Source: Marinobacterium lutimaris (lineage in GTDB: Bacteria; Pseudomonadota; Gammaproteobacteria; Pseudomonadales; Balneatricaceae). Taken from it: a DNA stretch of 64,000 bases. Under the pieces are notes generated by a model that searched no databases, was not told the origin of the DNA, and worked only from the letters and a program-made list of their open reading frames with translations. A program made the translations under genes and the position numbers. Shown piece after piece: positions 41,621-45,260 of the stretch. The stretch spans positions 1,550,001 through 1,614,000 of the forward strand of contig NZ_FNVQ01000001.1 in NCBI RefSeq assembly GCF_900108065.1. Direction: 5' to 3'. Positions within the stretch are counted from its first letter, which is position 1. The number at the start of each line of letters is the position of its first letter.

Positions 41621-44600
41621 CTACTTGCGGAAGAATTTAGCGGGGCGCTTCTTGCGCTTAGGCGTGCTGGCGGGCTGCTCCGGTACCTGTTGGGGGGTGG
41701 TATCGGATGGTTTGTCTTGCGAGTCACCGGCTTTACCGTAACGGACTTCACGCTGCTGCCAGTCATTTTCATCCATGCGATCAAGCCCCAGCATGGCGGA
41801 TCCGGCACGGGCATAGTTGCGGCAGTCAAGGAAGTGGTTATGGTCGCGGATTCGTTCCCACCGCTGAACCATGAAGCCTTTGTTGTCAGCCCGCTCGACC
41901 AATATCTCGGCAGTCAGCTGCTTGAAGTAGTCTTCATCCCACTCAGGGAAGTGGCAGTAACCGGTTGGCCACTCGCCACCGGCAGCCAGGGAATCGTCAG
42001 TGGGTCGCGCCAGCATCAGCCATTTGTACAGCTGCTCTTTCAGCACGTTGACACCCAGTGGCCACATCTTTATACCGCCATCCTTGCGCACACCATCGAT
42101 CGTGATCTGCACTGGTTTAGGGTTGCCGATCATGGTGGTTAGTGATCCCTGCCCCTTGATCGCCCTTAACCGGGGTGTACCGATCTGGGCAACTGTGCTG
42201 TAAACCTCCTGGGTATCGTTCGATGAGTCGATCAGCGCCAGCTCTATCGGCATGGCGATGCCGTGCTGGTTGGTGTAGCGGGTTTCAAGAAACTTGGAGA
42301 GCTCTTCTTTCACCCGGTCTTCAGAGATATGACCCTCGATGACACCGGTATCGATAGACCAGCTACGCTTTTTACGCCCCCAGGCCACCACCTCAAAGAT
42401 TAGATAGGTTTTCTGAACGTCGATACCGCAGGTGATCATGAGGCCGCCCGGCGGCACCTCGCCGATATTCCAGTGTTCACGGCGCTCATAGAGGCGCTGC
42501 CAGTCCGGCGCATCCCCTTTCTCGCGGTACACATCAGCCAAACGGGTGTTATAGAACGCCTTCAACGACTGCGAATTGTCGCCGGCATCCACGAACTCGC
42601 GCGCCAGTGCCACCACTGATATGAACGGAGACGCGAGCGCAGACGCTTTATAGCCGCGGTGGTGTGTCACCTCCGGCCGCTTCGGTACCCATTTGTGATT
42701 TGCGATTGACCAGAACCTATCACTCTCTGACCATACGTTGCCGCACTCATGACAGATGATGCGCGCCTTTTCCGGCCTCAGCTGCCCATGCTCATCTTCT
42801 GGAATATCTACGTGCTTAAACCAATCCAGCGCCTCAGAGTGCCCACAATGCCGGCAGGGCTGGTGAAATTCTCGCTGATCAGACTTCAGGTACTCCTGAT
42901 GAATACGGGAGCGCCCTTCGACCGTTGGAGAGCAGGCGGTGATCTTCTTGGCCCGCCAGCCGTAGGTAGTGGCACGACCCCAAGCCACGTTGATCGGATC
43001 CCCCTCACCACCAGCGCCGCCTTCTGTCGCCCCCACGTTCAGCGGGTACTTATCGCACTCATCAAACAGCATGATTCGACAGGCGCGCATTGCCAGATCC
43101 GTTGGGTTCTGAGCCGATACAATCGAGATCTGACCGCCCGGGAACTGCTTCTGCAGGATGGTGTTACCCTGCCCCCGCCTGTTGCTGCTGAAGATATCCC
43201 TCACCGCCGGGGTCGCGGTGACCGACTTCACCAGACGCTCTTTCGACCAGGCTTCAGCCGTTTCCTTTTTCGGCGCCACATACATGATCGGCGACGGCTC
43301 CTGGTGCATATAGAACAGGGCCGCATTGATCATTAACTCGGTATTGTGAGTGGGGATCATGCCCTCGCCACACAGATATAGGTGGTCTGGCGAAGCGACA
43401 GCTATGCACTGGACAGGGACTGGATCTACCTCAGCCACATTGGTAATCCGGCGGCGTTTTGATTCGCTGACCCGGGTGTTGCCGGCGATATCTTTAAGCC
43501 TGGCTTGTTTGCGGTGCAATCGGAACAATGGTGTGTCTGAGTACGCCATAAAGGTAATGTGAAACGCATGCTTTGTTGGCTTCAGCACCGGCTTAAGCCC
43601 AAGCCCCCTAAGCAGTTCGATCACCTGGGCAGCGAAAGCGAAGCTGTTGGTGCAAAAGGCCGGGTGACCCTGTTTCGATATAGTGCCGTCTGTGTCCATC
43701 AAGCCCTGAAGCAGTGCCAGCCGCTGAGCTTTGCTAGCGCGAAGATAGCTGTCAGGTATGTGCTTGTTCTGGAGCACATCCAGTTCGCTCAACAGTTGGT
43801 GAAGTCGCTTATGCTTTCTGTCCCGGTATTGCGGGTTCTCTTTCCTTGGGTTGGAGCGAAGGCTTGCACAAGTACGGCAACGCTTTCCATCCTCAATAGG
43901 ATGGCCGTAAGGGCACTCATCATCAGGCCGCACCGTTCCGACTAGCCACTCTCTGGTTCCGGTATCTGTTTCAGATTTCAGTTCAGCGGTATACCCGCAG
44001 GCCACTATCTCATCGATGATCTGCTGGTCTTTGGCGTGATTGGTAATACGCGACGAATAGCTGTGCCCATCTCCCAACCATGCGCCCAGCAAGTACGGAT
44101 CAATAGGCAGTTCTGCTACCGGCAGGTCCAGCGGCGCTGTAAGCGGTATCGCGTACCGGTTTGCAGTCCGTCCGCCGCCGAGATTGCTTTTGAATGCCTG
44201 GCTTATCTCCAGCGTGTTGGTGACGCGGGTACACTGAGTCGATGACCGAGTTCTGCTGTCATCCACCTGCCACTTGTGCCCGGCATCCGCCACCACGCTA
44301 GTACCGTCAGAAAATTCGACACGAAAGCATCGATTGGCAGTCTTTATCTCCGACTTACCGAGCACCGGGTACGGCTTACCATCTGCGCCAAAAACGAGAT
44401 CACCCGTGCGAAGATCACCCATTGTTAACCAGCCGGCAGGAGTTGGGATTGGCGTATCAAGCGCCAGCGCTTTCATCAACTGGATGCAACACATTACCGT
44501 CACTTCCTGAACGCTGGGATCGGTGATAGACATCATCGGTTCACGCGCAGCTTCCACGCGGTCAGTTCGCCACTTACCAGCTTCAGCAGAGTTATCAGGC

Positions 44601-44740
44601 AGGTAGCGGTATTCGTCCGCCCACTCAACCAGGTTGAGTTTCGGGGGCGGTTTCAGGTTGGCGCGGATGGCATCCTGCAGCCGGACCTGTATGTTGCGCC
44701 GGCAACGGAAGTGAAGCGGTTCAATCGCTGCTGTCATCAT
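41621..44740 (-). CDS. Terminase large subunit (gpA-like) interrupted by an intein
   Basis: The frame encodes 1039 residues. The exteins (1-90 and 467-1039, 663 residues together) match lambda gpA in length and motif order. These include a P-loop-like segment split by the intein (CCIQLMK before it and TELMINAALFY after), IMLFDECDKYPL as the Walker B region, and a C-terminal nuclease domain with LMITCGIDVQKT. A Cys cluster (HQPCRHCGHSE and ARIICHECGNVW) is a zinc motif. After protein splicing the enzyme should cut cos DNA and pump it into the prohead. The coding frame is intact throughout. Confidence 0.95.
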   Translation of the reverse strand: MMTAAIEPLHFRCRRNIQVRLQDAIRANLKPPPKLNLVEWADEYRYLPDNSAEAGKWRTDRVEAAREPMMSITDPSVQEVTVMCCIQLMKALALDTPIPTPAGWLTMGDLRTGDLVFGADGKPYPVLGKSEIKTANRCFRVEFSDGTSVVADAGHKWQVDDSRTRSSTQCTRVTNTLEISQAFKSNLGGGRTANRYAIPLTAPLDLPVAELPIDPYLLGAWLGDGHSYSSRITNHAKDQQIIDEIVACGYTAELKSETDTGTREWLVGTVRPDDECPYGHPIEDGKRCRTCASLRSNPRKENPQYRDRKHKRLHQLLSELDVLQNKHIPDSYLRASKAQRLALLQGLMDTDGTISKQGHPAFCTNSFAFAAQVIELLRGLGLKPVLKPTKHAFHITFMAYSDTPLFRLHRKQARLKDIAGNTRVSESKRRRITNVAEVDPVPVQCIAVASPDHLYLCGEGMIPTHNTELMINAALFYMHQEPSPIMYVAPKKETAEAWSKERLVKSVTATPAVRDIFSSNRRGQGNTILQKQFPGGQISIVSAQNPTDLAMRACRIMLFDECDKYPLNVGATEGGAGGEGDPINVAWGRATTYGWRAKKITACSPTVEGRSRIHQEYLKSDQREFHQPCRHCGHSEALDWFKHVDIPEDEHGQLRPEKARIICHECGNVWSESDRFWSIANHKWVPKRPEVTHHRGYKASALASPFISVVALAREFVDAGDNSQSLKAFYNTRLADVYREKGDAPDWQRLYERREHWNIGEVPPGGLMITCGIDVQKTYLIFEVVAWGRKKRSWSIDTGVIEGHISEDRVKEELSKFLETRYTNQHGIAMPIELALIDSSNDTQEVYSTVAQIGTPRLRAIKGQGSLTTMIGNPKPVQITIDGVRKDGGIKMWPLGVNVLKEQLYKWLMLARPTDDSLAAGGEWPTGYCHFPEWDEDYFKQLTAEILVERADNKGFMVQRWERIRDHNHFLDCRNYARAGSAMLGLDRMDENDWQQREVRYGKAGDSQDKPSDTTPQQVPEQPASTPKRKKRPAKFFRK
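43343..44470 (-). other. Class 3-like intein with LAGLIDADG endonuclease domain
   Basis: Residues 91-466 of the terminase frame (376 residues) form an intein. It starts ALALDTPIPTPAGW, with Ala where most inteins have Cys or Ser. Block B reads ADAGHKWQV, with His155 and Trp157. Block F is VPVQCIAVASPDHLYL (Cys445). Block G ends IPTHN with Thr467 as first extein residue. Trp, Cys and Thr at these places are the class 3 signature. The endonuclease domain has LLGAWLGDG (217-225) and LLQGLMDTDGT (343-353). A Cys/His cluster (C276, H280, C288, C291) may be a zinc finger. Confidence 0.93.
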
Positions 44741-45260
44741 CCTCTACCGTGAAATCGGCCAGTTCTTCCAGCATCCGGTAAACCTCTTCCTCAAGGCGAT
44801 TTTCGATAAAGGTGGCATCCTTATGCTCAAGCTGAGCAGCGTATTTCGGCAGCGCCATCAGACTGGCCCTGATCGTCGCCAGTGAGTGGCCGAGCTCTTC
44901 CAGAATGGCTTCAACGTCGCCGTACCGCTCCTCTTCCACGGCCAGGCTGATCTCTTCCTTTTTCATCTTCGCCAGCTCGGTGCGGCGTCGGATCTCATCT
45001 ATATCCAGTTCGTCGGCATCGCTACCGCCTCGCGCTTTTTGTAGTTCGAGGTCCTTCCACCAGCGTATGCAGGCTGCAGAGTCATAACGCGGAGACTTAC
45101 GGTGACCCTCATGGTCGTAGACCGGCATCCCCTTCTTGGTGAAGGTGGTTACCGACTGACGGCTGACCCCGAGGATTCGCGCCAGATCAGTTCCGTTGCA
45201 GATGGTGCCAAACCCACCATCTGAGTTACCCCCTTTGTGGTTGCTTCCGCTTTTCGCCAT
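44721..45260 (-). CDS. Terminase small subunit (Nu1-like)
   Basis: The ATG at 45260 gives 179 residues. It overlaps the large subunit gene by 20 bp. The N-terminus has a winged-helix-like DNA-binding motif (LARILGVSRQSVTTFTKKGM, PVYDHEGHRKSPRYDS), as in lambda Nu1. The middle and C-terminus are helical and acidic (ELDIDEIRRRTELAKMKKEE), which fits multimerisation and binding to the large subunit. No strong Shine-Dalgarno site precedes this ATG. Confidence 0.85.
   Translation of the reverse strand: MAKSGSNHKGGNSDGGFGTICNGTDLARILGVSRQSVTTFTKKGMPVYDHEGHRKSPRYDSAACIRWWKDLELQKARGGSDADELDIDEIRRRTELAKMKKEEISLAVEEERYGDVEAILEELGHSLATIRASLMALPKYAAQLEHKDATFIENRLEEEVYRMLEELADFTVEDDDSSD

Follow-up and report, generated by a model that had tools for sequence, protein, structure and literature searches.

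Class 3 inteins and inteins of terminases

Class 3 inteins are defined by a Trp at position B:12, a Cys at F:4 and a Thr at G:5, together with Ser or Thr at the +1 position and a first residue that is not a nucleophile (PMC5222942). In the class 3 intein DnaBi1 of Mycobacterium smegmatis, oxidation joins Cys48 to the catalytic Cys118, and all changes of Cys48 that were tried abolished splicing, an effect described as unclear for a residue described as non-conserved (PMC6195587). The same intein is blocked by zinc through Cys118, Val119 and Tyr128 (PMC7360933). Among phages, inteins are known from the TerL1 terminases of mycobacteriophages, where insertion site a lies between the Lys and the Thr of the P-loop (PMC5050341). 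Here we describe an intein in a prophage terminase of Marinobacterium lutimaris, encoded within the window, that is, the whole stretch of 64,000 nucleotides which was analysed.

An intein within a prophage terminase of the lambda gpA type

A minus-strand open reading frame (41621-44740), open over 1039 codons, encodes the large subunit of a lambda gpA-type terminase. The whole 1039-residue protein matches the Pfam families GpA_ATPase (1.5e-57) and GpA_nuclease (1.2e-75), and the C-extein alone is recognized as a gpA-type terminase by the same 2 families (4.9e-52 and 3.7e-76, respectively). Pfam searches identified further phage genes around the terminase, namely those for a portal of the lambda type, one capsid and one tail protein, and a Nu1-like small subunit (28.1 bits, short of the curated threshold of 30); since these genes sit inside a bacterial contig, the locus is assigned to a prophage. 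The insert comprises residues 91-466 of the terminase, i.e., 376 amino acids at exactly 43343-44470 on the minus strand, in agreement with the coordinates and with the residues K90, A91, W157, C445, N466 and T467 given in an earlier note on this DNA. The features of the locus are as follows:

44721..45257, minus strand: Nu1-like protein, probably the small subunit of the terminase, which overlaps the large subunit at its start (Pfam Phage_Nu1, 1.8e-06)
44471..44740, minus strand: N-extein, terminase residues 1-90, ending in CCIQLMK (with the insert left aside, it aligns unbroken to intein-free terminases)
44111..44470, minus strand: N-terminal splicing (HINT) part, intein residues 1-120 (120/121 boundary approximate)
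44468-44470, minus strand: intein A1
44327-44329, minus strand: intein C48 (protein C138)
44276-44278, minus strand: His B:10
44270-44272, minus strand: Trp B:12
43481..44110, minus strand: LAGLIDADG homing endonuclease domain, approximately intein residues 121-330 (Pfam LAGLIDADG_3, 3.3e-06, and Foldseek; boundaries approximate)
44066..44092, minus strand: first LAGLIDADG motif, LLGAWLGDG, with intein Asp134
43868..43915, minus strand: Cys/His cluster C186-x3-H190-x7-C198-x2-C201, possible zinc site (sequence pattern)
43685..43714, minus strand: second LAGLIDADG motif, LLQGLMDTDG, with intein Asp261
43343..43480, minus strand: C-terminal splicing part of the intein
43406-43408, minus strand: Cys F:4
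43349-43351, minus strand: Thr G:5
43346-43348, minus strand: His G:6
43343-43345, minus strand: Asn G:7
41621..43342, minus strand: C-extein, consisting of Thr+1 and the remaining gpA ATPase and nuclease domains (Pfam)

The viral contig L001 (45,583 bases) carries an intein 100% identical to this one, and among 57 related genomes the intein was found in 1, its own. The same genome carries a second gpA-type terminase gene (L021; contig C18 of G000, 1640115-1641788, minus strand), approximately 26 kb past the end of the window. It is 31% identical to the C-extein query, and the length of its open frame, 691 amino acids, suggests that it lacks an intein.

The insertion site

The junctions of the intein could be placed exactly to the residue, because 4 intein-free phage terminases align across them without a break: L003, L004 and L005 display a continuous CIQLMKTELM, and L011, from a Bordetella phage, reads CTQLLKTELI at the same place. 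The C-extein is approximately 58% identical to its intein-free relatives. At the DNA level, the empty site matches 3 intein-free relatives in 51, 52 and 51 of 72 bases (24, 23 and 25 of the central 30) and the Bordetella phage in 41 of 72 (17 of the central 30). The proposed splitting of the P-loop holds by position, the insertion falling at approximately positions 40-41 in Pfam's profile of the gpA ATPase, but the loop reads LMK/T (the slash marks the junction) and lacks the glycine of xGK/T. This glycine-free loop, CIQLMK/T, is common to the host terminase and its intein-free relatives. Single-linkage clustering of C-exteins (blastp, 1e-4) placed the M. lutimaris terminase in a cluster of 43 rows, for 2 of which (M. 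lutimaris and L104) the gpA label rests on Pfam, the remainder being presumed gpA. Inspected by eye, this cluster shows the same intein boundary with a preceding Lys (xGK/T, LMK/T) or without it (GA/TE, GY/TK, GF/TE), indicating that the insertion site tracks the position in the loop, not the lysine.

Assignment to class 3

Residue 1 of the intein is Ala91, which is neither the Cys or Ser of class 1 nor a Thr nucleophile. H155 and W157 align with H65 and W67 of DnaB1 and thus occupy B:10 and B:12; Cys F:4 is C445 (intein C355), Thr G:5 is T464 within T-H-N, and the +1 residue is T467. The sequence therefore carries the full set of residues expected of a class 3 intein, as had been proposed, with one amendment: the Thr of the Trp-Cys-Thr signature is T464, inside the intein, and not T467, which at +1 represents a further class 3 feature (PMC5222942). 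Consistently, the best phmmer matches of the insert among PDB sequences were the DnaB1 class 3 inteins (5.8e-30 and 1.1e-29), and in a profile search against PDB the best match was again a class 3 intein, at 2.1e-47. Neither the intein nor the whole protein matched NCBIfam at E ≤ 0.001. The NCBIfam model of the intein N-terminus, TIGR01445, did not detect this intein in its own genome at that threshold and thus misses it.

In a tree of the splicing blocks, a single branch separates 38 rows that are class 3 or class 3-like, the M. lutimaris intein among them, from 10 that are class 1 or class 1-like (93/90; this branch was not starred by the program, its bootstrap is unsettled and the tree contains no class 2 rows). 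The intein thus groups with class 3 and apart from class 1, and its sister within the tree is L002 (100/99). The class 3 side consists of the M. lutimaris intein and 37 hand-picked rows, 2 of which (L209 and L213) are devoid of the Trp. The class 1 outgroup was composed of 9 of 25 loci and the phage locus L212, picked for a readable C-terminus; among them, L191, L196, L204 and L208 are possibly intein-like domains, and the cut in L196 lies one residue too late. Together, Ala at residue 1 and the tree rule out assignment to class 1.

Class 3 inteins are common in phage and bacterial DNA

A tblastn search with the intein matched 556 of 50,697 phage records (E ≤ 1e-5), with 531 of the matches spanning at least 80% of its length. 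Not all of these are class 3: 14 of the 556 were opened (L006-L010 and L209-L217), and 2 of them (L212 and L214) start with Cys and are class 1-like. Profile-derived patterns, applied to 600 candidate stretches from viral contigs and 590 from genome contigs, recovered at least 592 and at least 575 relatives, respectively; the best 80 from each were retained, and the signature was examined in aligned rows only. From 183 loci, 168 yielded a tblastn hit and 166, those with plus-strand hits, were kept. After removal of L097 (which ends in 2 places), L109 (internal stop) and L111 (857 residues), the alignment comprised 164 rows, i.e., the M. lutimaris intein and 163 of the 166 relatives, near-copies included (L001 carries the M. 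lutimaris intein itself, and L002 equals L104). L097, with 2 intein matches at one locus, and L111, with 857 residues between its ends, perhaps each hold 2 inteins.

The complete His-Trp-Cys-Thr signature is present in 162 of the 164 rows from phage and bacterial DNA, and Cys F:4 in all of them, so that the view of class 3 inteins as few does not stand. Residue 1 is Cys in 5 rows (L006, L043, L101, L102 and L103), all with the complete class 3 signature, and these inteins could go either route. Variation is also seen in other phage inteins: L209, L213, L242, L243 and L244 are class 3-like, with Cys F:4 and T-H-N, and have Asn or Ile in place of the block B Trp, whereas L222-L225, which are related to the class 3 intein of the Baka type, have Cys at +1 in place of Ser or Thr. 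The profile of PHROG family 15 (terminase large subunit) aligns over positions 79-313 with intein residues 1-269 and over 413-970 with the C-extein; the match across the intein implies that public alignments already include such intein-bearing terminases, whether or not they are named as such.

The endonuclease domain and its Cys/His cluster

Both LAGLIDADG motifs reported previously, LLGAWLGDG and LLQGLMDTDG, are present with their acidic residues, and the AlphaFold2 model (53 sequences; pLDDT 94.8, pTM 0.92) predicts a HINT domain carrying a two-motif endonuclease of the LAGLIDADG fold. A Foldseek search with this model ranked PI-SceI first (9.9e-19) and also recovered 6bs8, the class 3 intein of Msm, at 1.3e-09. 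Compared with L002, a relative at 74% identity, differences at the 3 codon positions amount to 0.22/0.14/0.62 over the whole intein and 0.28/0.15/0.63 over the endonuclease part (used in place of Nei-Gojobori dN/dS, which gave no usable dS), indicating that the endonuclease is under purifying selection. Amino acid identities to L002 are 74% for the intein, 76% for the C-extein and 72% for the N-extein. Intein and C-extein have thus diverged to a similar extent and this pair carries no sign of recent homing; intein and exteins have probably travelled together since the 2 prophages parted.

The endonuclease domain contains the Cys/His cluster CPYGHPIEDGKRCRTC, which the earlier note had correctly recognized. 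The pattern CxxGH-x(5-24)-CxxC occurs in 31 of the 164 rows, near-copies counted, always in the same 2 alignment columns. By C-extein group, it is found in 21 of 41 gpA, 9 of 37 TerL, 0 of 62 DnaB and 1 of 24 other rows; the TerL label of the 37-row cluster rests on L007, L032 and L089 (L044 has no Pfam match) and the DnaB label on L117. Between M. lutimaris and L002, 4 of 25 residues differ in the cluster segment, compared to 61 of 210 in the whole endonuclease domain. A 107-row tree built without the cluster columns (28 of its rows have the cluster) requires 14 changes, the mean after shuffling being 24.9. A single origin without loss finds no support, given these 14 changes in the best tree and the at least 5 that its starred branches force. 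The row distribution and the tree indicate that the cluster is an old part of the endonuclease, often lost or gained, and not an innovation of this phage.

The cluster segment of the M. lutimaris intein matched no Pfam family at E ≤ 5, described zinc families included, and 4 other cluster segments gave 2 weak matches below the curated cut-off (DUF2321, 0.11; zf-like, 0.021). That the cluster binds zinc is a conjecture based on the arrangement of Cys and His residues. No description of the cluster was found in titles and opening abstract lines among the papers listed on inteins, LAGLIDADG or homing endonucleases and zinc. A looser Cys pattern recovered 79 of the 164 rows, with 2 kinds of insert taken together, the second being a larger multi-CxxC insert (CVVCG...CGxSCGG...CPDCG...CxxC) between the LAGLIDADG motifs of many of L117-L183. 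This insert occurs in actinobacterial DnaB inteins (e.g., L117, L125, L133 and L148), at approximately the same place as the Cys/His cluster.

Cys48 marks the core of class 3

The residues C48, C118, V119 and Y128 of DnaBi1 have as counterparts C48, C355, I356 and Y365 in the M. lutimaris intein. Position 48 is Cys in 157 of the 164 rows, in 146 of 152 at less than 90% identity and in 64 of the 65 rows less than 40% identical to the M. lutimaris intein, by similarity to which the set was recruited; it ranks 41st of the 376 positions. Hence, C48 hardly varies among core class 3 inteins, contrary to its published description as non-conserved (PMC6195587). The boundary is drawn by 29 additional rows (21 non-redundant), which were either recruited by other phage inteins or opened separately: 11 of the 18 non-redundant rows with the Trp have C48 and 7 lack it, which rules out C48 as a universal class 3 residue, and the other 3 rows lack both Trp and C48. 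When the alignment is read by eye, column 48 shows no Cys in any of the tree's 10 rows that are class 1 or class 1-like. C48 thus marks core class 3 and not all of it, and, if the 7 divergent inteins are active, splicing without C48 must be possible.

Splicing model and alternative explanations

Taken together, the data are best explained by a prophage terminase of the lambda-gpA type whose Walker-A position is occupied by a full-length, splicing class 3 intein that carries a LAGLIDADG homing endonuclease, a reading to which we assign a probability of about 0.85. By analogy with the class 3 inteins treated in PMC5222942 and PMC7664689, we infer that the gene would be translated as a single precursor chain of 1039 residues, in which the block F Cys C445 (intein C355) would attack the K90-A91 bond, assisted by His B:10, Trp B:12 and Thr G:5. 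The N-extein would then be transferred to Thr+1 (T467), Asn466 would cyclise, and joining of the exteins would restore a terminase of 663 residues. The free intein may act as an endonuclease on intein-free gpA genes, cutting the DNA of the empty allele and copying itself in, and the element would be kept through homing and through its location in an essential loop. Very probably, the unspliced precursor would be inactive, since the insert interrupts the ATPase site. For DnaB, it was considered "reasonable to assume" that the precursor is unable to use ATP, and RadA is cited as a case in which this has been shown (PMC6195587). An obligate control point on DNA packaging, as the earlier note put it, can only be inferred; prompt, spontaneous splicing would be the most likely mode.

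Alternatives concern both the ability of the insert to splice and the route it takes. The insert might no longer splice, leaving the terminase or the prophage dead, and it was indeed seen solely in the M. lutimaris genome and in the identical L001, with no free phage found to carry the same intein; yet the frame is open, the extein domains are present and the 74% relative is conserved likewise, which makes decay highly improbable. Splicing by a class 1 or class 2 route despite the signature appears more remote still. Sequence alone cannot prove a mechanism, and 5 of the 164 rows pair Cys at position 1 with the full class 3 signature, but Ala at residue 1 rules out the first step of class 1, Cys F:4 is invariant, and the tree, built without class 2 inteins, separates this intein from class 1. 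An intein that splices while its endonuclease is inactive, and which is inherited vertically with the prophage, is unlikely, though the least unlikely of the alternatives: the parallel divergence of intein and extein and the single carrier among the 57 related genomes would fit such a history, whereas the confidently predicted fold, the intact domain with both motif aspartates and the purifying selection across it argue for activity.

A further alternative concerns the mode of splicing. A C48-C355 disulfide formed on oxidation, or zinc on C355, might keep the terminase from splicing until reducing conditions return to the cell. Such gating is possible, if rather doubtful, and spontaneous splicing is the default reading. 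Counterparts of the redox pair and of the zinc residues of DnaBi1 are present here (PMC6195587, PMC7360933), and the near-invariance of C48 across the 164 rows would suit such a switch. Against this, C48 may persist solely through a need in splicing, among 18 divergent class 3 rows with the Trp, 7 do without it, and a protein of the lytic cycle would presumably gain nothing obvious from delay. A bolder extension, which we regard as speculative and improbable, would make C48 the fourth signature residue of core class 3, serving both splicing and a lock on the catalytic Cys, with the endonuclease zinc cluster as a metal arm for DNA recognition or zinc supply, and terminases and DnaB helicases with split P-loops being held back jointly under oxidative or zinc stress. 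If true, the C48 lock would amount to a built-in redox switch common to core class 3 inteins.

Comparison with known systems

Among the closest known systems are the class 3 mini-inteins DnaB1 of Mycobacterium smegmatis (6bs8, 6own) and M. chimaera (6rix, 6riy), which likewise have Ala1, Cys48, His65, Trp67, Cys F:4 and a Thr-His-Asn end. The M. smegmatis intein is also inserted in a P-loop (PMC6195587). However, the DnaB1 mini-inteins lack an endonuclease, reside in a helicase and are followed by Ser+1, whereas the M. lutimaris intein carries a LAGLIDADG domain, resides in a terminase and is followed by Thr+1. PI-SceI displays the same architecture of HINT and two-motif LAGLIDADG endonuclease. 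It is a class 1 intein, with an N-terminal Cys and an added DNA-contact region.

The TerL1 inteins of mycobacteriophages are likewise located in terminase ATPase domains, and several of them (TerL1-c, -d and -e) are class 3 (PMC5050341); in phage PhatBacter (L217), the intein reads K/ALDV...THN/T, with both the Trp and Cys F:4. In the mycobacteriophage survey, the terminases reported with inteins are confined to terminase_1, terminase_6 and a terminase-like protein, so that the lambda-gpA type found in M. lutimaris is an extein type absent from that report (PMC5050341), and our literature search on inteins in gpA terminases found none. The nearest relative, in Marinobacterium profundum (NZ_BCNS01000002, L104; the viral contig L002 is identical to it over the stretch compared), is 74% identical, shares the gpA subfamily, the junction and the CPYGH...CRTC cluster, and differs only in degree. 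The recurrence of the CxxGH...CxxC cluster at one place of the endonuclease offers a handle on whether target recognition is metal-assisted, and the gpA inteins are endonuclease-bearing class 3 inteins with intein-free relatives, usable for homing studies. Overall, the M. lutimaris intein is a clear and fairly ordinary member of the known and common class 3 group.
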